Shown one piece after another: positions 54,289 through 64,000 of a stretch of DNA of 64,000 nt. The position numbers and the translations under genes are program-made. The stretch covers positions 336,484 to 400,483 of the forward strand of contig PBNO01000003.1 in assembly GCA_002723155.1 (NCBI GenBank), in the 5' to 3' direction. The notes below the pieces were generated by a model. It did no database searches and was not told the origin of the DNA. It saw nothing but the letters and a program-made list of their open reading frames with translations. Each line of letters starts with the position of its first letter. Within the stretch, counting starts at the first letter, position 1. Origin of the DNA: Ponticaulis sp. Lineage in GTDB: Bacteria; Pseudomonadota; Alphaproteobacteria; Caulobacterales; Hyphomonadaceae.

Positions 54289-55884
54289 CTACAAAAACTC
54301 GCCCTTGAGCGCGTCTTCGATCAGATCGGCTGTCGCCTCGACGCCATAGATCGCGATAAAGCCACCAAACCGCGGCCCCTGAGACTGACCGAGGCAGACC
54401 TCGTAAATCGCCTTGAACCAGTCGCGCAGATTCTCAAAGTTCTGGGACTTACCGGCCGTGAAGGTCAGCGTTTGCAGGTCTTCACCCGTCACCGGACCAT
54501 CATAGCTGCGCAGGAGAGAGACTAGTTCTGTCAGAGCCGCACGTTCCTGATCAGTCGGCGCACGATAAACCTTCGCAGGCTTCACGAAGTCCTCATAGTA
54601 AGCGAGCGCATAGCCGACCAGATGGTCAAGGAATGGCGCGTTCTCCGGCGTTGCGTCCGGCGCATACTTAGTGATGAAGCCCCAGATCAGCTCTTTGGAG
54701 TTCGCATTCGCTGCCGACACGAGGTTCAGGAGAAGCGCAAAGCTCACCGGCACGTTCAGCTGCGGCGGCTTGCCACCATGAATGTGCCAGACAGGGTTTT
54801 CCAACTGCTTGGCAGGCTCTTCAGAATGATACTTCTCAACGAAGGTGAGATACTCATCCACCGCCTTCGGGATCACATCGAAATAGAGCTTTTTCGCGGC
54901 GCGCGGCTTCTGCCACATGAAGAGCGCAAGGCTCTCCTGCGGGGCATATTTCAGCCATTGCTCGACCGAGATGCCATTGCCTTTCGACTTGGAGATTTTC
55001 TCGCCTTTTTCGTCGAGGAACAGCTCGTAGACATATTGCTCTGGCGGGCGCTGACCGAGGATACGGCAGATCTTGGAATAGATCGGCGCATTCGCCTGGT
55101 GGTCCTTACCGAACATCTCAAAGTCGACGCCGAGCGCAGCCCAGCGCATGCCGAAGTCCGGCTTCCACTGCAGCTTTGCATTGCCGCCCGTAACGGAGAT
55201 GGTGACGTCTGAACCGTCTTCATCTTCGAATGTGATCTCGCCTTTGGCTGCATCGACATTCTTCATTGGCACGTAGAGCACGCGGCCAGATTTCGGAGAG
55301 ATTGGCAGGAATGGCGAATAAGTTGCGCGGCGCTCCTCACCGAGAGTCGGCAGCATCACACCCATGATCTCGTCATACTTTTCCGCAGCGCGCAGAAGCA
55401 TCGGATCATAAGTACCGTTCTTGTAGAGCTCAGTCGCAGACGCGAACTCATACTCGAAGCCGAAACTGTCGAGGAAGGCACGCAGGCGCGAATTCATGTG
55501 CGCACCATAGCTGTCATGCGTGCCGAACGGGTCTGGCACATCTGTCAGCGGCTTCTGCAGATATTCTTCAAGGCTCTCAGGGTTTGGAACCGTTGGCGGC
55601 ACCTTGCGCATACCGTCCATATCGTCTGACACACAGATCAGGCGGGTCGGGATTTTTCCTTCCGTCAGCGTTTCAAACGCGACGCGCACCATAGTCGTGC
55701 GGACGACTTCACCAAACGTGCCGATATGCGGCAGACCGGATGGGCCATAGCCTGTCTCGAACGTGACCGGGCGTGTGAGCGGTTTGCCCTGTTTTTCCAT
55801 CTGCTCGACGCGCTGTTTAAGCTTCTGCGCCAGCTCGAAAGGCCAGGCTTTAGCATTCGCTGCGAGAGTGGAAATGTCGGTCAT
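54289..55884 (-). CDS. lysK: Lysyl-tRNA synthetase, class I
   Basis: Charges tRNA-Lys with lysine; 531 aa, cytoplasmic. It is the class I (archaeal-type) enzyme, not class II LysS: the HIGH-like motif is PHIG in '[16 protein letters not shown]' and the KMSKS-like motif is KISKSKG. Class I LysRS is normal in alphaproteobacteria. The C-terminal helical part ends '[18 protein letters not shown]'. It shares a terminator with the converging SDR gene. Confidence 0.96.
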
Positions 55885-56146
55885 TTTTTGGGTTTGCCTT
55901 TAGTGATTAAACCAAGCGCGGGAGTTAGGCCTGATGGGTCTTTGGGTCAAGGTTTTACGGGGAGTTGACGCACTTGTCATGACGGCACGCGACTTGTTCT
56001 GTCTCTGACCGTCCCCGCACATAGTCCGCTGCATGATAGCACAGCCACATCTTAACGCTCGCACCACCTGCATTAACCAGTTTTGATACAGTGTAAAACG
56101 CGGGGCGTCCGAAAGAAATTTACTTTCAACTCAGAGGACTAAAACT
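55885..56146. other. Gene-free part of the region upstream of the chemoreceptor gene
   Basis: This divergent gap holds the lysK promoter and that of the chemoreceptor gene. No RNA gene or strong hairpin was found. A TTAACCAG motif near 56072 resembles a CtrA half-site, but no second half follows at the required distance. Confidence 0.5.
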
Positions 56147-56230
56147 ATGCAGTGTATAAAATGTGCACGATTGAAATCCCGCTTTATTAACCTTTCCCGA
56201 CCAGTACTGCCCGCCTCTTTGGAGGGGTAG
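56147..56230 (+). CDS. Possible 27-codon leader ORF upstream of the chemoreceptor gene
   Basis: ATG at 56147 has CAGAGGA about 8 nt upstream and reads [20 protein letters not shown]... to TAG at 56228-56230, 11 bp before the chemoreceptor ATG. The peptide carries CxxC and is basic. It may be a leader peptide or chance; no family is recognised. Confidence 0.3.
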
Positions 56231-56241
56231 GAAAACCAAGA

Positions 56242-57639
56242 ATGATAAGCACTCTACTTGCAAGAAAACAAAAAGTTGACACCGGTATCCAGCTGAATGA
56301 ACAAAGTTCGAACGAGACGGCTACGTCCACCGAGCTCGTCAAATGTCTCGAACACTTCATCGATCACAATGTCGCTGACATGGCGGGCATCTCCGCTCGC
56401 GAACGCGCGCTTCTGGAGAAGCTTTGCGAGCGCCTTAAAGCCTCGGATAACACTGCCCTTCGCGGCGCGGTCAACGCATCCATGACGGCGAGCAAGGTTC
56501 AGGCCGGTCTCGCAAATGCCTTTTCCGACATTTCCGATGTGCGCCAGCACAGCCAGATCATGGCAGGCGCGATTCAGGAGCTGGACTCCTCGATTTCGCA
56601 AATTTCCATCTCAGCGCAATCTATCGACCAGGGCCTTCAGTCATCTGCTGACGAGACGCGCCTGTCTGCCGAAGAAGTCGATCAGGCCACCGCGTCTGTC
56701 CGCAACACAACAGCCAGCCTTGAGCACATTGTCGGCAATATGCAGGAGCTGGAAAATGCGGCGACGCAAATCCGCGGCATGTCAAAAACGATTGAAGACA
56801 TTGCAGGGCAGACCAATCTACTCGCGCTGAACGCCACAATTGAGGCGGCCCGTGCAGGCGATGCCGGCCGAGGGTTTGCGGTTGTCGCCTCTGAAGTGAA
56901 ATCCCTTTCCGACCAGACCGCCAAAACCACCGAACAGATCGCCGAGCGCATCCAAAATCTGGAAAGCGCGATTGAGATGATCGTCGGCGCGGTGACAAGC
57001 GCGCAGACCTCTGCCCGCGACGCTGAAGAGATCACCAACTCGGCAAACCATCGCGTTCAGAACACAACGCAAAGCATTCTGAACAATGCCGACGCGGTTT
57101 CTGCCCTGGCCAATGTGATCAATGATCAGAAAGCCGCGACAGCAGAACTGGCGCACGGCGTCGATCAGGTCGCTCAACAAAGCCAGAGCGCGCAAAGCAA
57201 GCTGCAGGCGACAACGAAAGTCGCGTCTGAATCGGAAAACCAGATTACGGCCCAGTTCGACGAGCTGGAAAAGCGTAAAGTCGCCAATTACGTGCTTTAT
57301 CGTGCCAAGTCCGATCATATGATCTGGAAGAAACGCCTCGCTGCGCTCCTTTCCGGCCTGTCCGAACTCAGTGAACATGAGCTGGCTGATCACCATTCCT
57401 GCCGCCTTGGCGAATGGTGGGATGGCGAGATCGGAAACGAGATTTCAAGCCTCGCATCCTTCAAGGCGATTGAAGCGCCGCACCGCGCGGTTCATGCGAG
57501 CGGTCGCCGCGCAGCGGAGCTCTACAATCGCGGCGACAAGGCGGGCGCTCAACAAGCCTATCTTGAAATGGAGCGGGCTTCAGAAGAGGTGATCCAGCGT
57601 CTCGACGAGCTGATCTCCAAGCTTGAAGCGAAAGCCTGA
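56242..57639 (+). CDS. Soluble methyl-accepting chemotaxis protein with C-terminal zinc-binding CZB domain
   Basis: Cytoplasmic chemoreceptor of 465 aa: no hydrophobic segment. The signalling hairpin tip lies at about 184-225 ('[20 protein letters not shown]' and '[18 protein letters not shown]'). The C-terminal CZB domain has His359, Cys387 in 'HSCRLGEWW', His414 and His418 in 'HRAVH', the full 3His-1Cys zinc site. CZB receptors sense zinc or oxidants such as hypochlorite through this cysteine. No cheA/cheW genes are nearby. Its stop abuts the converging methyltransferase gene. Confidence 0.95.
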
Positions 57640-58470
57640 TCAGGCTTTCTCTGCCTCAACCTTCCAGATGGCAGCGGTGAACCGGACCATTCCGCCGGAT
57701 ACATACTCTGCCATCGCTTCAGCTATAGCCTGCATAGCCGCCTTGCGCGGCTCTGCCTCCAGTTCGGACACGATACGCCCGACCGGCCCCATCCGCTCCA
57801 TCCAGAAAGAGAGCGCGGCTTCCGGAAACGCACAGTCAATGTCGAGCGGCGCGATACTGACATTCCGCCAGCCCGCCTCGGCCAGCATGTGACGCACATA
57901 GTCGGCGTCTGCCCAGCCGAACTGCCCCGTCCGGCCCGGCGGCGGGAAGGCATCTTCCGGCAGCCAAGGGTCTGCCGCTTGTTTCGGCGCACGCATGAAA
58001 GGGTTGTCCTTCGGACTGCGCCAGGCGAGCAGCGTCATCGCCGCGCCATTCGCGCTCGCGCGATGAATGTTGGTGAAAGCGGCCACAGGGTCTTCAAAGA
58101 ACATCACCCCGAAGCGCGAGACGATGTGATCGAAACTGCCAGCGTCAAACGGATAATCCTGCGCATCGGCGCGAATAAAGCTGGCAGTCTTACAGCCTTC
58201 CGTCGCGCGTTCCTTTGCCCGTGAGAGCATAGGCTCGGAGATATCTACGCCGGTGACTTGCATACCCCGCATCTCCGCCAGAGCGAGGCTGACTGCGCCC
58301 GTGCCGCAGCCAATATCGAGCAGACGCTTTGCGCCGCTCGCCTCCACTGCCGCTGTCAGTACCGGCACGCAGCCTGAAAACGCTTCATCCAGAAAGGGCT
58401 GGCCCTCAACCCATGTGAGGCCGGATTGGCCATTCCAGAACGCGCTCTGCGGATTAGTTTCTTCTGACAT
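57640..58470 (-). CDS. SAM-dependent methyltransferase (UbiE/class I)
   Basis: Protein of 276 aa. The SAM motif is 'LLDIGCGTGAVSLALAE' at about 46-62, followed by 'VTGVDISEPMLSRAKER', 'IRADAQDYPFDAGSFDHIVSRFGVMF' and 'MTLLAWRSPKDNPFM'. This resembles the group annotated as methyltransferase-domain protein near UbiE/ArsM; substrate unknown. Cytoplasmic. The start is the ATG at 58470; the stop codon is adjacent to that of the chemoreceptor gene. Confidence 0.88.
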   Translation of the reverse strand: MSEETNPQSAFWNGQSGLTWVEGQPFLDEAFSGCVPVLTAAVEASGAKRLLDIGCGTGAVSLALAEMRGMQVTGVDISEPMLSRAKERATEGCKTASFIRADAQDYPFDAGSFDHIVSRFGVMFFEDPVAAFTNIHRASANGAAMTLLAWRSPKDNPFMRAPKQAADPWLPEDAFPPPGRTGQFGWADADYVRHMLAEAGWRNVSIAPLDIDCAFPEAALSFWMERMGPVGRIVSELEAEPRKAAMQAIAEAMAEYVSGGMVRFTAAIWKVEAEKA

Positions 58471-58591
58471 GGCTCATCCTCCCGTTTTGAACGGAGCTTA
58501 TCTGCCGCGCGCCAGCACGGGCAAGACTTTATGCCGCTTCCACTTATCCGCGAAGCTGTGTCACACTCAGCGGAATGCGGAGGGGAACGCG

Positions 58592-59373
58592 ATGAGTGCT
58601 GACAGCGAAAAGCCGGGCCATGTCTGGTGGAAAGTTCTGAGCAGGTTGCTCGGTATTTTTGCAATCCTGTTGCTCGCTGCGATCGGGCTCTTCCTGCTCT
58701 CGCGTGTGCTTGGCGTCGATGAAGACGGTGTTCTGCCTGTCTCTCTTTTTGTGCTGCTCGGCATGCCGTATATTATTGGCGCGCTGGCTGCCTTTCTGAT
58801 CGACCCGAACGCGAAACGCACTCAGGAAAAAAGCTATCTGGCCGTTCTGATCTTCATGGCGTCTGTTCTGGTGCTTGGCGGGCTCCTCTTTCAGGAGGGT
58901 GTGATCTGCCTGCTGATGGCGGGCGTGATCTGGACGCCGATGGCGTTGCTTGGTGCGAGGGCCGCTTCACCTTTGCGCAGAGCATTGCGCAAATCCCGCG
59001 TCCGCGTTCGGCTGTCGTCGCCGGTGAAGGCGTGGGCTCTGTGCGTCATGCCCAATGGGGCGAAAACATAACCTTTGAGGAACACATCACCGACTGGCAG
59101 GAAAACGAGGCGTTAAGCTGGGAGTTTGTGTTCCCGAATGACTCCATCAGCCGCTACACAGATCAACATATCTCACCTGAAGGACGTCACCTGCGCATTC
59201 AGGAAGGCGGCTACCGGCTGGAGCCGCTTTCAGATGGCCGCACGCGCCTCACCCTCTACACAGATTATGAAGCGCAAACGCCGATGAACACTTATGCCGC
59301 AATCTGGGGCGAAATTTTTCTTGGCGGCATTCAGGCCAATATTCTGGAGATTATTGAGGGTCGTTTGGCTTAG
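58592..59373 (+). pseudogene. Broken membrane/SRPBCC-domain gene (frameshift with probable internal deletion)
   Basis: The 5' frame from 58592 (ribosome site GGAGGGGAA) encodes a membrane region, 'GHVWWKVLSRLLGIFAILLLAA' and further helices, up to about 58955. From there the coding sense moves to another frame, which reads 'EGRFTFAQSIAQIPRPRSAV', 'VRHAQWGENITFEEHITDW' and 'RLTLYTDYEAQTPMNTYAAIWGE' to the stop at 59373. The second part looks like the C-terminal half of an SRPBCC/polyketide-cyclase-like protein. Intact relatives that I recall have a longer linker and complete SRPBCC start between these parts, so an internal deletion with frameshift is likely. Alternatively the 113-codon frame at 59032 is translated alone from GTG. 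Confidence 0.65.
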
Positions 59374-59509
59374 CAGCGAGTTCGGCTTTCTTCGCCTCTG
59401 ATTGGCGGATCAGACGTCGGAACACCATCATAATGACGACATGACCGACGACCGTCAGCACAGTCAGGCCAATGGCAATCGCCAGAATGGTCATCATGGT
59501 TGAGGACAT
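59351..59509 (-). CDS. Small membrane protein, 52 aa
   Basis: A minus-strand frame too short for most tracks encodes MSSTMMTILAIAIGLTVLTV, then VGHVVIMMVFRRLIRQSEAK and an Ala/Lys-rich tail ending NDPQ. One hydrophobic helix of about 25 residues is followed by a basic cytosolic segment, a layout shared by small inner-membrane proteins. Codon choice (CTG, GTC, GCG, CGC) fits the host. It overlaps the end of the SRPBCC pseudogene by 23 bp. No strong ribosome site is visible. No family recognised. Confidence 0.55.
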   Translation of the reverse strand: MSSTMMTILAIAIGLTVLTVVGHVVIMMVFRRLIRQSEAKKAELAAKPNDPQ

Positions 59510-59738
59510 GGCCACAATTGGCGGTCTACAGCTCTATCGGTCAATGCGACACTCCTGCATGCGCTGCCCTATTTTAGCGCACGCATTGGGCGTTCTCTTT
59601 CTCGCCTTCCATGCCGCTTGCCACCCAATAGCGATTATACTACTCGTTCTTGCGTCGGTTAATGGCAGCAGATCTCTGTTTGGGGATGGACAATCCGCGC
59701 CGGACCGACCGGATAGCTGTGTGTAGGGGGCGGCTTAG

Positions 59739-61151
59739 ATGGTATTTTCATCAGTAGAGTTTCTGTTTCTCTTTCTGCCAGTTTTCCTGATATTTTACAT
59801 TGCCTTACCGGCATTGCGGAACATCACCCTGCTCGCTTTCAGCCTGCTGTTTTACTTCGTGGGCGAAGGCTATTTCCTCGCCGTCATGCTCGCCAGCATC
59901 GCGATCAACTATGTGAGCGGATTGTTCGTTGCGCCGGGCGTTAAAGGGCGCGGCCCCGCCCTTGCCATAGGTCTGACGCTCAATGTCGTCATGCTGGTCT
60001 ATTACAAATATATCGGCTTTCTGGCGCAGGATGTGTTCCAGCTGCCTGAGAATGACTGGACGACCGATGTGCACCTGCCAATCGGTATTTCCTTTTTCAC
60101 CTTCCAGGGCATGTCCTATCTGATTGACGTCTATCGCGGGAATGCCCGCAAAGAGATGTCACCCTTCCGGCTGGCGGCTTACATTTCCATGTTCCCGCAG
60201 CTGATTGCCGGCCCGATTGTACGCTTCTCGACCGTCGCGAACGATTTGCGCCGCCGCGTCATCCGCCTGAAGCACGTTTATTATGGTCTTCTGTTTTTCG
60301 CTGTCGGGCTCGCTGAAAAAGTCATTCTGGCCGACACAATGGCAAAGGTCGCAGACGCGATTTACGGACGCGCGCCGGACGAGCTGCAGGCTTCCACAGC
60401 CTTTCTGGGCGGCCTCACTTATTCCTTCCAGATCTTCTTTGATTTCTCGGGCTATTCAGCCATGGCGATCGGGCTTGGTCTGATCCTTGGCTTCAAGTTT
60501 CCGCGGAACTTCAACTTCCCTTACATCTCCCAGAGCATCACCGAGTTCTGGCGGCGCTGGCATTTGTCGCTCTCCACATGGTTCCGCGATTACTGCTACA
60601 TTCCGCTTGGCGGAAACCGGCTCGGACCGAGCAAAACCTACCGCAACCTGTTCCTGATTTTCCTGCTGACCGGCGTCTGGCACGGCGCGTCATGGAACTT
60701 CATTGTATGGGGTCTTTGGCACGGCTTCTTCATTATCATCGAGCGTTTCGGCTTTTCGAAAGTGCTGGAGAAAATGTGGATCGGCCTGCGCGTCGCATAC
60801 ACGCTGATCATTGCGTATATCGGCTGGATTTTCTTCCGCGCCGAGGACCTGACGCATGGCCTGCAAATGCTTGCCCGACATTTTGCCTTTGGCGAAGGCG
60901 GTGCCAGCGTCTGGGAGTTTCTCGATAACGAGACCCTGATCGTACTGGCCATGAGCTCTGTATTGTCGACGCCGGTTGTGCTGTGGGCGAGCCGTGGCTT
61001 CATCGCACCGCCTGCCTATGGCGCATGGATGAAGCGCAATCCGATGTGGAAATATGGTCTGGGTGTCGCGCTCGCTGCGATCCTGATCATCGTATCCAGC
61101 GTCAAAATTCTCGCTGGCACGTACAGCCCGTTCATTTACTTCCGGTTCTAG
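59739..61151 (+). CDS. MBOAT-family O-acyltransferase (AlgI-like)
   Basis: Polytopic inner-membrane protein of 470 aa. The invariant His region is 'TGVWHGASWNFIVWGLWHG' and 'FFDFSGYSAMAIGLGLILGF' and 'SITEFWRRWHLSLSTWFRDY' are AlgI marks. AlgI passes acetyl groups from the cytoplasm to the periplasm for acetylation of alginate or other polysaccharides. The following AlgJ/AlgX-like gene 9 bp downstream is the probable periplasmic partner. No alginate genes are seen, so the glycan is unknown. Confidence 0.93.
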   Translation: MVFSSVEFLFLFLPVFLIFYIALPALRNITLLAFSLLFYFVGEGYFLAVMLASIAINYVSGLFVAPGVKGRGPALAIGLTLNVVMLVYYKYIGFLAQDVFQLPENDWTTDVHLPIGISFFTFQGMSYLIDVYRGNARKEMSPFRLAAYISMFPQLIAGPIVRFSTVANDLRRRVIRLKHVYYGLLFFAVGLAEKVILADTMAKVADAIYGRAPDELQASTAFLGGLTYSFQIFFDFSGYSAMAIGLGLILGFKFPRNFNFPYISQSITEFWRRWHLSLSTWFRDYCYIPLGGNRLGPSKTYRNLFLIFLLTGVWHGASWNFIVWGLWHGFFIIIERFGFSKVLEKMWIGLRVAYTLIIAYIGWIFFRAEDLTHGLQMLARHFAFGEGGASVWEFLDNETLIVLAMSSVLSTPVVLWASRGFIAPPAYGAWMKRNPMWKYGLGVALAAILIIVSSVKILAGTYSPFIYFRF

Positions 61152-61160
61152 GAGACAGAC

Positions 61161-62807
61161 ATGAAGATTGAACGCGTCCGTTTCGAACCTCTCTCCTTTG
61201 TCGCCATTGTTGCGCTTGGCGTATTATTCGCCATTCCTCTGCTCGGTCTGTTTCAGGATGAGGAAGACCTCGCCCGCAGGCAGAACCGGGCGCTGAATGA
61301 AGCGCCTGAATGGTCTACACTCGTTTCTGAACCTTCCCGTTTCTTTGCCGAGGGACGCGCCTGGCTTTCAGACCGCGCCCTGTTCAGCGTGGATGCCTCT
61401 GTGAACTACCGCAAATTCAAATATTACGCGCTGGGGGACTCGCCCGCTGCGAACGTTGCACGCGAAGGCGATCTGGTTCTGCCTATCGCGACTGACGCCG
61501 CCAATATCGACTATGTTTCGGTAACGGGCAGTTGTCCTGCTGAAAACGACTGGGATCAGATGACCCAGTCACTCACCAATGGCTGGGCCGAGATCAACCG
61601 CGCAGCGGAACTGGCCGGGCTTTCGACATTCGGCGTGATCGTACCAAGCAAGCCCGTGCTTTACGCAGACCGTTTGCCGCGCTCCATCCCTTCTGAAATT
61701 CGCGCCCAATGCGTCTATACAGCGGAAAACGAGTCGCCTGCCGTGCGCATTGCGAATTCCTTCCCCGATACGCTGACCTATCCGTTGGCAGACTTCATGG
61801 CCGAACGCGATGTTGACCATTTCTATCCGCTGGAAAACTTCCACGCTGATGGCATGGCTGCATCACGCGCGGCGCAAAGCCTGATCTATCTGAGCTCTCT
61901 GGAGCCGTTCCGCGAGCCCGAATTCACCGTCCGTGAAGGCAATGCCGACATGGAACCTGCGCTGGGATTTGCGCGACGCGTCAACTTCCAGAGACCAGAC
62001 TATACATCGGCCGCAGACCGCTCCAACACTCTCGATCGTGAAGTCCAGCAGGGTGCCCGTCTGCGCGGCAACCAGATTTCAGCTTTCTTCAATGCAAACG
62101 CCGCCGATCCTCGCCGTGTTGCCATCATCGCAAACTCGTTCGGCGCACGCATCGCGCCAGACGTCGCCAGCCATTATGCAGAGACCGTTCAGATCAACAC
62201 GAATGGTATGAACCGGCAGACCCTGATCCGAATGTTCCGCTATCTGATGGATGGCAGCTTTGATCAGATTTTGTTCGTGATGCACGAACCAGGATATTAT
62301 AATCGGGTACGCCTGTTCGCAGATGCCATGCTTGAGGCGACCAGCCTCGAACCCGACGAAAATGCCGGCGCCCGCGTTGCTGACGTATCATTTGCCCCGG
62401 TGTCATTCTCCGAGTTTGATGCACGCGGCTGGCTACCACCTGGCCAAAATACGGAGCTGCGCTGGAGCAAAGGCGGTCGCCCTGCCTTTATCGACATTCC
62501 ACGCTCTCTCTTCGGTGAAGGCAATTCGATCCAGATGCGTGTCCGACTGTTTGGTCCGGAGGTGTCTGACGAGCGTTGGGCAAGAATTCTGGTCTGCGGA
62601 CAAGAAGACGCCGATATCACAGACCGGCTGAATTCATCGCTTGAACCGCAGATCCTGGAGATCGAGTATGACGCAGAGTGCGGAAGCCGGATGACGATTG
62701 AGTTTCAATCCAGCGAGCAGCCATCAGGCGCGGACCTTGGCCTGACCCAGGATCGTCGCCAGCTTGGTATCCGCGTCGACGAAATTCAGCGCGTCTCCCG
62801 CCGTTAA
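61161..62807 (+). CDS. AlgJ/AlgX-like SGNH-fold acetyltransferase partner
   Basis: Protein of 548 aa with one N-terminal membrane anchor (residues 9-30). 'QNRALNEAPEW' and 'FAEGRAWLSDRALF' are the typical AlgJ/AlgX opening. The nucleophile region is 'VAIIANSFGARIAP', with Ser in NSF rather than the common GTS or GDS. The Asp-His motif seen as DTHW in AlgJ/AlgX appears as ENFH in 'FYPLENFHADGMA', so the usual Asp may be replaced. A beta-rich C-terminal part of about 150 residues may bind the glycan. It should act in the periplasm with the MBOAT protein. Confidence 0.85.
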   Translation: MKIERVRFEPLSFVAIVALGVLFAIPLLGLFQDEEDLARRQNRALNEAPEWSTLVSEPSRFFAEGRAWLSDRALFSVDASVNYRKFKYYALGDSPAANVAREGDLVLPIATDAANIDYVSVTGSCPAENDWDQMTQSLTNGWAEINRAAELAGLSTFGVIVPSKPVLYADRLPRSIPSEIRAQCVYTAENESPAVRIANSFPDTLTYPLADFMAERDVDHFYPLENFHADGMAASRAAQSLIYLSSLEPFREPEFTVREGNADMEPALGFARRVNFQRPDYTSAADRSNTLDREVQQGARLRGNQISAFFNANAADPRRVAIIANSFGARIAPDVASHYAETVQINTNGMNRQTLIRMFRYLMDGSFDQILFVMHEPGYYNRVRLFADAMLEATSLEPDENAGARVADVSFAPVSFSEFDARGWLPPGQNTELRWSKGGRPAFIDIPRSLFGEGNSIQMRVRLFGPEVSDERWARILVCGQEDADITDRLNSSLEPQILEIEYDAECGSRMTIEFQSSEQPSGADLGLTQDRRQLGIRVDEIQRVSRR

Positions 62808-62840
62808 ACCAAATTCACTACAGTGACTGCATTCCAAAAT

Positions 62841-62858
62841 ACCCCTGAATTCAGGGGT
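62841..62858. terminator. Perfect 18-bp palindrome after the O-acetylation operon
   Basis: ACCCCTGAATTCAGGGGT is its own exact reverse complement, 33 bp after the AlgJ-like stop. It can form a hairpin with a small loop followed by AT-rich sequence (no clean T-run), or bind a dimeric protein. It stands at the left border of the AT-richer segment. Confidence 0.5.
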
Positions 62859-62948
62859 GTATAAAATATTGGGCATTATATATTTGACAAACCAAGCGCA
62901 AATCGGTCGAAGGTGAAGGAAAGATTCTAACGTATTGGCGATTCGCGG

Positions 62949-62954
62949 TATAAT
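62949..62954 (+). promoter_or_regulatory. Possible -10 element of the BstA-like gene
   Basis: A perfect TATAAT at 62949-62954 lies 49 bp before the start codon. No good -35 box is at the right distance; a TTGACA at 62884 is 59 bp away and does not pair with it. A regulator-dependent promoter is possible. Confidence 0.35.
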
Positions 62955-62987
62955 TGAAACGAATCAGTTTTCATGATAAAAGTGCGC

Positions 62988-63057
62988 CAGAGGAAATCAA
63001 TAAATGACAAAAGAAATCAAGAGGTTACCCGTAAAAAAAGGTGCAGAGGAAATCAAT
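62988..63057. repeat. Direct repeats spanning the start of the BstA-like gene
   Basis: CAGAGGAAATCAAT occurs at 62988-63001 and again at 63044-63057, both 14/14 identical, 56 bp apart. The core GAAATCAA has a third copy at 63013-63020. The first copy holds the ribosome site (AGAGGAAA), the second is in codons 14-18. In phage BTP1 a short DNA element in the 5' region of bstA gives self-immunity; these repeats sit in the matching place, but the sequence relation is untested. Confidence 0.65.
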
Positions 63058-63897
63058 CAAGGAAACCTCTTTGTTGATAAGGAGACTGAGATTCAAGGTA
63101 TAGGAATGGGAGTCCTAAATGATGGAACTCCATTCTTACATCAGCGCGGGCTTGCTGCGCTTTGTGGCGTTGAGAACGCTCATATCGGCACAATCAGCTC
63201 TCAATGGAATGAAGAGATACAGAAACCACGTGTATCAGCAGTTAAGTCGCTGCTCGCGAAGCGTGGGATCACTGTCAATAATCCACACATTGAATGCAAA
63301 CATGGGGGACGGACTATCTTCGCCTACCCGGACCATGTGTGCCTCGCGATACTGGAATATTATGCTTTTGAAGCAGGTGCCAATGTCAAACAGGAAGCAA
63401 TCCAGAATTTTAGAACGCTTGCAGGACAGGCGCTTCGGGACTTTATTTACCGGCAAGTTGGATATGACCCAACCGGCAACGATCGTTTCGCCAAATGGCA
63501 TGAGCGAATAGAGCTGAACCATCAATCAGCGCCACACGGATATTTCAGCGTTTTCAATGAGGCACATACAGTCATCTATGAACTGATTATGGCTGGCGCA
63601 GAAATAAACGAGAAAATGGTGCCAGATATTTCTATCGGTATTGCTTGGAGCAAATACTGGAACGACAATGGCTTGGATGCAAATTATGGAAAGCGGGACA
63701 AATTTCCTCATCAATATCCAGATGATCACCCTCAATCTAAATCAAATCCGCAGATAGCGAATTGCTATCCGATTGAAGCATTAGGCGCTTATCGTCTATG
63801 GCTTCAGGAAGAGTATATCGAGGGCGGGAAGTTCGCCAACTATCTTAAGACGAAAACTAAAGACGGTCTTCCACCATCAGTCTGGTCTGCTCCCTGA
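63004..63897 (+). CDS. BstA-like phage-defence candidate (KilA-N-like N-terminal domain)
   Basis: Protein of 297 aa, close to the 307 aa I recall for BstA of Salmonella phage BTP1. The N-terminal part, 'GIGMGVLNDGTPFLHQRGLAALCGV' in pieces up to about residue 140, fits a KilA-N/Bro-like DNA-binding module. The C-terminal part has 'FIYRQVGYDPTGN', 'GYFSVFNEAHTVIYELI', 'VPDISIGIAWSKYW' and 'YGKRDKFPHQYPDDHPQSKSNPQ', which I associate with BstA relatives. BstA proteins stop phage replication at the cost of the cell. Base use is AT-richer than the rest of the window. The last residues may come from the IS3-type element whose end contains the stop codon. Family call is from memory. Confidence 0.6.
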   Translation: MTKEIKRLPVKKGAEEINQGNLFVDKETEIQGIGMGVLNDGTPFLHQRGLAALCGVENAHIGTISSQWNEEIQKPRVSAVKSLLAKRGITVNNPHIECKHGGRTIFAYPDHVCLAILEYYAFEAGANVKQEAIQNFRTLAGQALRDFIYRQVGYDPTGNDRFAKWHERIELNHQSAPHGYFSVFNEAHTVIYELIMAGAEINEKMVPDISIGIAWSKYWNDNGLDANYGKRDKFPHQYPDDHPQSKSNPQIANCYPIEALGAYRLWLQEEYIEGGKFANYLKTKTKDGLPPSVWSAP

Positions 63898-64000
63898 AAA
63901 GTGGTCCATTATTTGAGTTAGTTCCGGCTTCAGATATGGAGCTGAGACATGGGCAAGAGATCTACGCCTGAAGAGATTATTGCGAAGCTGCGGGAGGTGG
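63895..64000 (+). mobile_element. Left end of an IS3-family insertion sequence (partial)
   Basis: The element appears to start near 63895 with TGAAAAGTGGTCC, a TG-initiated end as in IS3-family terminal repeats, 54 bp before the transposase OrfA start. Its first three bases form the stop codon of the BstA-like gene. The other end and target duplication are outside the window, so the exact border is inferred. Confidence 0.6.
63949..64000 (+). CDS. IS3-family transposase OrfA (partial, N-terminus only)
   Basis: The frame ATGGGCAAGAGATC... reads MGKRSTPEEIIAKLREV before the window ends. 'TPEEIIAKLRE' is the well-known N-terminal helix of IS3-type OrfA (HTH_Tnp_1-like), which binds the element ends; the catalytic OrfB would follow by frameshift. 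Only 17 residues are visible. Confidence 0.75.
   Translation, partial: MGKRSTPEEIIAKLREV

Follow-up and report, generated by a model that had tools for sequence, protein, structure and literature searches.

At the right-hand end of the 64,000-nucleotide stretch of Ponticaulis sp. DNA analysed here (the window), an AT-rich segment holds an open reading frame (ORF) that resembles a phage-defence gene. The locus raises three linked questions: what the gene is, how it came to lie beside core chromosomal genes, and what the DNA around its start codon does. The features on which the answers rest are collected in Table 1.

Table 1. Positions in the window, or locus labels, of the features discussed (last five rows, phage loci)
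Feature	Position or locus	Strand	Basis
Target-site duplication, left copy, 8 bp, AAAATATT	62863..62870	.	Comparison with empty site
Left terminal inverted repeat, 23 nt, GGGCATTATATATTTGACAAACC	62871..62893	+	Inverted match at far end
Direct repeat copy 1, 20 nt, CAGAGGAAATCAATAAATGA, candidate aba half-site	62988..63007	+	Direct-repeat search
bstA ORF, 297 aa	63004-63897	+	ORF call
bstA native part, 293 codons	63004..63882	+	BstA profiles and IS boundary at 63883
Direct repeat copy 2, CAGAGGAAATCAATCAAGGA, candidate aba half-site, inside coding sequence	63044..63063	+	Direct-repeat search
KilA-N-like winged-helix region, residues 24-125	63073..63378	+	AlphaFold2 secondary structure
Predicted recognition helix, residues 58-66	63175-63201	+	AlphaFold2 and column analysis
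Insertion sequence (IS), left end; clips bstA 3' end, runs off contig	63883..64000	+	Repeated matches
bstA-free elements in DNA helicase genes	L410 (copy L429), L411		PHROG
bstA-free element in DNA primase gene, another frame	L404		PHROG
bstA-free element in O-like initiator gene	L394		PHROG
bstA-free element in head-morphogenesis gene	L409		PHROG
bstA-free element in RNA-ligase-like gene	L403		PHROG

The bstA gene and its clipped 3' end

The assignment of the gene to the BstA family is well supported by sequence comparison. The PADLOC profile PDLC02356 matches the ORF with an E-value of 5e-115, a full-length likeness covering profile positions 8-273 of 292, and PHROG 6287, 'BstA abortive infection system', matches with an E-value of 2.9e-90; Pfam and NCBIfam gave no match at E 1. 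A sequence-only reading of this DNA had called the product a BstA-type protein of about 300 aa with a conserved C-terminal stretch. The family call is borne out, the length holds with 293 of the 297 residues native, and the stretch in question, 'VPDIS.G..W', is conserved across the family. Conserved columns lie in the N-terminal and C-terminal parts alike, which is the two-part BstA layout. BTP1 BstA, the experimentally tested protein, is 47.6% identical to the window protein over residues 19-286, and a copy encoded near phage-type genes on an Azospirillum plasmid is 60.1% identical. Abortion of infection by blocking phage DNA replication is the function of the BstA family and, by analogy, a putative one for the window copy.

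The gene is rare. Relatives were found in 12 of 50,697 phage records and 8 of 72,556 plasmid records (some partial), a sample of 385 genomes from the class contained 5 with any match, and within the genus the window's own genome is the only one of seven with a match. Viral-contig scans with the window protein alone and with L061 returned no matches. One plasmid homologue, L005 on the 19.5-kb mobilizable Sagittula plasmid p8, adjoins a recombinase-family gene and has an MvaI/BcnI-type restriction gene ~5 kb away.

The AlphaFold2 model of the window protein (73 sequences; mean pLDDT 91.4) places two helices, 47-54 and 58-66, in an N-terminal part that resembles a winged helix, and we read the predicted helix 58-66 as the recognition helix. 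BstA has been called KilA-N-like (PMC8585504), as the sequence-only reading also had it, with Foldseek proposed as a check. Foldseek returned no match to the model below E 0.001, and among its weak viral matches are many proteins of the KilA-N, Bro-N, repressor and antirepressor kinds. Thus what stands of that claim is a weak fold resemblance to the KilA-N and Bro-N phage DNA-binding domains, from which the window protein differs in having neither a Pfam match nor a Foldseek match below that threshold. A fold search of the PDB likewise gave no match at E<=0.001. The best PDB match of the model (63004-63894) was DdrC, a Deinococcus DNA-binding damage-response protein that is of interest for a protein acting on replicating DNA; at E 0.18 it is too weak to be used as a fold relative.

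The 3' end of bstA is interrupted at 63883 by an insertion sequence that we take to be IS3-type. It has seven matches in its own genome, the window's included, and four of the others lie at contig ends; the same IS breaks the assembly at several contig ends (own contigs C3, C5, C6, C11 and C14). The copy on C5 encodes HTH_Tnp_1, HTH_21, rve and rve_3 domains, and in copies with other flanks the boundary falls at the base corresponding to 63883, give or take 1-2 bases of chance identity. The last four codons and the stop of the ORF (W S A P *) are IS sequence, and because the IS supplies the ORF end, the ~20 tail residues seen in relatives are gone. An intact C-terminal tail is therefore missing; the sections of PMC8585504 consulted do not name the tail as defining. 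Without those residues the window BstA may be inactive, and the clipped tail together with a cut transposase (below) suggests that this bstA copy is decaying.

The IS1595-type element around bstA

Ten ORFs in the left 18 kb resemble core chromosome, SelO, PGI, class I lysyl-tRNA synthetase and MBOAT among them. Five of the ten match PHROG families, and in every case the Pfam name of the family points to a host-type enzyme or to chemotaxis. No phage genes surround the locus on this side, and as the contig ends at window base 64000, their absence, asserted earlier for the locus at large, is judged on the left 18 kb only. The AT-rich pocket described from the letters is real: GC is 0.43-0.46 over 62750-64000, compared with 0.50-0.63 in windows from 55000 to 62749.

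The gene lies within a transposon. A congener, G387, has an uninterrupted chromosome at this position (locus L196) that represents the empty site, and window similarity to it stops at 62870. The sequence GGGCATTATATATTTGACAAACC recurs in inverted orientation at the far end of the element, on own contig C10, and at both ends of an element in another congener, G385. The far junction on C10 carries the identical 8 bp AAAATATT, on L196 the two flanks share exactly 8 nt (974-981), and C10 beyond the element continues the G387 chromosome with 93.2% identity over 6,466 nt. A target duplication of 8 bp is a trait of the IS1595 family. Inside the right end on C10 lies a transposase remnant of 176 codons (528 nt), 96.6% identical to the G385 copy in DNA and 98.9% in protein, which another IS cuts at the contig end. 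The full G385 transposase contains Pfam DDE_Tnp_IS1595 (E 4e-32) and Zn_ribbon_IS1595. Terminal inverted repeats, 8-bp duplication and, by way of the G385 copy, transposase domains are thus all those of IS1595, and the conclusion that the window bstA is a passenger of an IS1595-type transposon is well supported at the sequence level. The assembly breaks at an IS between contigs C3 (the one that ends with the window) and C10. A simple IS insertion joining bstA and the transposase fragment was considered and rejected, as on our reading the bases beside the two IS ends mismatch.

The sequence-only reading had left a choice between a stand-alone gene and a prophage remnant, and neither describes a gene that has a core flank, transposon ends and an 8-bp duplication and whose site is empty in a congener. 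A prophage remnant would fit the family at large, in which 79% of 72 described BstA homologues are prophage-linked (PMC8585504). However, the transposon ends, target duplication and core flank speak against it here and the G387 empty site contradicts it, leaving this origin scarcely conceivable. BTP1 and other phage bstA copies lie downstream of a CI-type repressor, whereas the window gene has no neighbouring repressor.

The G385 element occupies the same site as the window's but holds other passengers, so cargo exchange may take place at the site or in the element. The G385 element (L195 5324-8490) and one in a further congener, G390 (L202 2864-6132), are the same IS1595-type element with unknown passengers, and share ORFs of 118 aa and 92 aa (69% and 62% identity).

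bstA transposons recur elsewhere. The locus set comprised at least 337 fetched loci with a match (window copies included), of which 333 were usable; these gave 205 distinct start regions and 169 non-redundant loci. Several of the relative searches feeding the set contributed the best 80 of 142-253 relatives each, and loci found by a later search were left out of all counts. In 17 loci, of which 16 are distinct, bstA has an IS1595-type transposase no more than 4 kb away. With a complete element defined by terminal repeats matching at >=19 of 24 nt and an exact 8-bp duplication around bstA, 11 of the 205 distinct loci are complete (repeats 19-24 of 24, all with transposase), compared with 0 of 155 in a mismatched-flank control. 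A twelfth complete element, L039, has the start region of another locus. The terminal sequences of these transposons fall into several types. In genome G026, four copies (L023-L026) of one protein fit the BstA profile in its C-terminal half alone, and each of the four short stretches also has an IS1595-type transposase; this is possibly a BstA-like passenger with another N-terminal half.

The window's element shares transposase domains, terminal inverted repeats, 8-bp duplication and the carriage of passenger genes with IS1595-family transposons at large. It differs from those with passengers in that its cargo, a gene for phage defence, comes with immunity-type DNA of its own and that another IS has cut its transposase. 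No paper combining BstA and IS1595 was found in an open-access literature search, and the main text of PMC8585504, searched by term, makes no mention of transposons with bstA.

A direct repeat across the start codon

The feature that we regard as the most informative, and that the earlier reading missed, is a direct repeat whose two copies, 90% identical, lie 56 nt apart across the ATG, with copy 1 overlapping the ribosome-binding region and start codon. Its score was reached by 0 of 1000 dinucleotide shuffles at any spacing of 20-150. Against a 77-column profile of 23 other loci the window element scores 21.3; the maximum in 80 reversed 6.2-kb controls is -1.3. The own genome contains seven AGGAAATCAAT sites, two of which are the window pair.

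This layout, in which direct repeats end a stretch of DNA that crosses the bstA start, is that of aba, the anti-BstA DNA element, which the sections consulted of Owen et al. 2021 (PMC8585504) map in BTP1 only. BTP1 aba is 63 bp (-29 to +34) with terminal CCCGCC repeats, each needed; it is DNA-based and cognate, and many-copy aba DNA suppresses the cognate BstA (PMC8585504). By our count the CCCGCC repeats in the printed BTP1 aba (PMC8585504) are 56 nt apart, and the BTP1-type loci L133 and L134 have CCCGCCA repeats at 56 nt. By analogy we infer that the start-codon repeat of the window is an aba-type element, attached to a protein of the same family. The half-site is AGGAAATCAAT in the window and CCCGCC in BTP1 and, unlike its BTP1 counterpart, the window gene is transposon cargo with its last residues replaced by IS sequence.

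The spacing extends across the family. In an unconstrained search for the strongest direct repeat between -200 and +30 relative to the conserved MG motif, with ties counted fractionally, a spacing of 57 was best in 43.4 and 56 in 23.2 of the 169 non-redundant loci (together 66.6), the next spacing reaching 6.2. When copy 1 was restricted to the expected stretch, 56/57 accounted for 93.6 of 169 and every other spacing for <=3; in an earlier set of 117 loci the count was 51.5, compared with 0-2.5 in three shuffle rounds. A 56/57-nt repeat has rank p<=0.05 in 109 of the 169 loci (hereafter well-supported loci), and 40 have no good one (rank p above 0.1). These counts make a 56/57-nt spacing rule across the bstA family well supported, while the repeat sequences themselves differ by clade (AGGAAATCACC, CCCGCCA, CCGCGCACCC, CGATCACC, GAGCACCACC, GGTCACCA and others).

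The two copies also belong together. A locus's own copies score 7.06, compared with 4.96 when copy 2 comes from its five closest relatives, on average 72% identical; own exceeded swap in 136 loci and the reverse held in 32 (p 1e-19), and a more generous swap gave 121 and 45 (p 2e-11). None of nine control spacings had an own-over-swap excess, and three leaned slightly the other way. The comparison demonstrates, for the loci compared, that the two copies agree beyond relatedness. Concerted base changes in 165 close pairs showed no clear excess, the share being 0.158 at 56 nt, 0.062 at 57 nt and 0.04-0.18 at other spacings from 40 to 74. Extra repeat copies elsewhere in the same loci numbered 3, against 2 in the reversed control (37 loci). 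In a rhizobial group (L286-L301, L326), copy 1 sits inside nested inverted repeats just before the start codon (CTAGCC...GTTGAG...CTCAAC...GGCTAG in several), possibly a hairpin or an extra operator.

Could the pairs at 57 nt merely reflect the peptide (KEIT...KEIT, at an interval of 19 residues) or a duplication of the ribosome-binding/start signal? The alphaproteobacterial-type copies do contain AAGGA and read KEI in frame, and most of the bstA-free elements (below) situated within ORFs are open in that frame. However, 41 of the 109 well-supported loci have the repeat at 56 nt, out of frame; in 28 of 109 copy 1 is wholly outside the BstA frame, and 53 of 109 offer no start codon in frame ahead of copy 1. 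Other clades (CCCGCCA, CGATCACC, GAGCACC) lack a ribosome-binding sequence, L404 carries its element in another frame of a primase gene, and TTAG occurs in 9 of 27 although long open frames use TTA for only 1.9% of their Leu codons. We consider this explanation very improbable.

Which residues accompany the half-site was analysed over 235 alignment columns in 106 of the 109 well-supported loci, with the effect of overall identity removed. Columns 58, 63, 60 and 62 were the best predictors of half-site similarity (ranks 1-4 of 235); C-terminal columns 288, 274 and 291 followed at ranks 5, 6 and 8, and the same three were among the eight best of the first analysis. In pairs under 55% identity the same four columns ranked 2, 1, 9 and 5, and for three control stretches (25 nt up- and downstream, 80 nt downstream) they ranked 65-201. 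Taken overall, half-site similarity had a partial association of 0.27 with C-terminal identity, compared with 0.18 with N-terminal identity. Among the 35 loci with CAYCACC half-sites, His58 was paired with C in copy 1 in 22 of 23, and loci with another residue had T in 10 of 12 (p 3.7e-6 with descent ignored); in copy 2, 12 of the 35 rows carry a base other than C or T, and the link is seen in 12 of 13 and 8 of 10 of the rest. A tree built from residue 75 on gave ~7 independent contrasts, 4.8 in the same direction and 0 opposite (sign test p 0.0625). L295 and L296, close to each other after the helix (branches 0.039 and 0), differ in the helix and in that base in both copies. The alignments show that half-site sequence tracks residues 58, 60, 62 and 63 of one predicted helix.

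Elements without bstA and the possible reach of the proposed immunity DNA

The pattern AGGAAATCA-N47/48-AGGAAATCA, scanned over viral contigs, gave 65 matches in 63 stretches, 62 at 57 nt and 3 at 56. Low-complexity coding repeats make up 16 of these. The remaining 49 include 32 that fit the 47-nt inner profile built from the 23 bstA-linked loci at p<=0.05, and 30 that do so at p<=0.01 (judged by shuffles keeping base composition), compared with 0 of the 16 low-complexity matches and 0 of 17 host-genome pairs. Four matches have bstA just downstream, one of the genes broken (L414). Removing them leaves 28 bstA-free candidates, two of which share one sequence, 17 with a positive profile score and one, L392, marginal (inner-profile p 0.044). 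BstA was found in the whole viral records of 0 of the 28, compared with 4 of 4 with the adjacent gene, although the records may be fragments. Among the matches listed from two scans, distinct non-low-complexity pairs numbered 41 at 57 nt, 4 at 56 and 0-7 at 58-72.

A 16-base pair at 57 nt also occurs in 13 of the 385 class genomes (17 matches, four in one tandem repeat), with spacings 53 and 54 together in 11. As none of the 17 chromosomal pairs fits the inner profile, any chromosomal excess is not aba-like, and the aba-like excess lies in viral contigs. The complete Bradyrhizobium phage ppBeUSDA76-2 (OP596614) carries an element between annotated genes, with a profile score of 49.6 (at most -1.3 in 80 control stretches) and no BstA; it was located through an ORF spanning the element, so the find is not independent of the pattern. 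A second Bradyrhizobium phage stretch, L561, has no element. BTP1-type aba was not seen outside bstA phages, to which 8 of 8 phage matches belong, and E. coli gave no match.

Of the 18 element-holding ORFs compared with PHROG, six have clear matches, two weak ones and ten none (Table 1). That some pairs lie in replication genes, namely those for helicase (L410, L429, L411), primase (L404) and the O-like initiator (L394), could mean that they are BstA target sites or replication-origin repeats, in keeping with the block that BstA places on phage DNA replication (PMC8585504). Yet other elements lie in head-morphogenesis, RNA-ligase-like or family-less genes, the inner sequence matches that of bstA-linked elements, and the BTP1 element protects the DNA that carries it while BstA acts on unrelated phages, with lambda, phi80, P1 and T7 reported as blocked (PMC8585504). 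We judge target or origin sites unlikely, and infer from the sequences that the bstA-free elements in phages are a candidate DNA counter-defence.

The full explanation that we consider probable is that bstA is abortive-infection cargo of an IS1595-type transposon equipped with its own aba-type element. BstA, probably a dimer or larger assembly, would use helix 58-66 to bind the two half-sites. One chromosomal copy would act as an operator-like site and leave BstA active. When an element with the cognate repeat replicates to many copies, BstA would be held there, unable to block replication of that DNA; incoming phage DNA without the repeat would be blocked and the infection would abort. Clade-specific half-sites would render the immunity private.

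The repeat might instead be mainly an autoregulatory operator of bstA, with immunity a side effect of BstA titration, a possibility that we place slightly short of even. It predicts that the repeat is kept outside prophages, and the repeat is indeed kept (rank p<=0.05) in 14 of 16 non-redundant transposase-adjacent loci, in 61 of 94 viral-contig loci without transposase and in 34 of 59 others, the window among these; it also overlaps the ribosome-binding region and start codon. Against it, phage elements without bstA need another function, and a single chromosomal aba does not suppress BstA, with no transcription needed (PMC8585504), although this non-suppression fits titration and says nothing of expression. 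The retention in transposon-adjacent copies suggests that the repeat also helps to control expression or to spare the host replicon.

Beyond the window, a broader proposal seems to us evenly balanced between right and wrong: BstA immunity would be a portable DNA tag, made of clade-specific half-sites 56/57 bp apart that one helix reads, which rides on prophages and IS1595-type transposons and which bstA-free phages use as counter-defence. If so, ~28 viral contigs and ppBeUSDA76-2 carry the tag, several inside their own genes, and BstA would spare them. How aba DNA suppresses BstA is left open in the discussion section of PMC8585504; the 56/57-nt architecture, a readable half-site and four candidate residues make suppression and the privacy of the pairs directly testable. 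That the repeat is kept on transposons suggests a role beyond prophage induction. The bstA-free elements, if the proposal is true, would be a DNA-only counter-defence, invisible to searches for anti-defence proteins.
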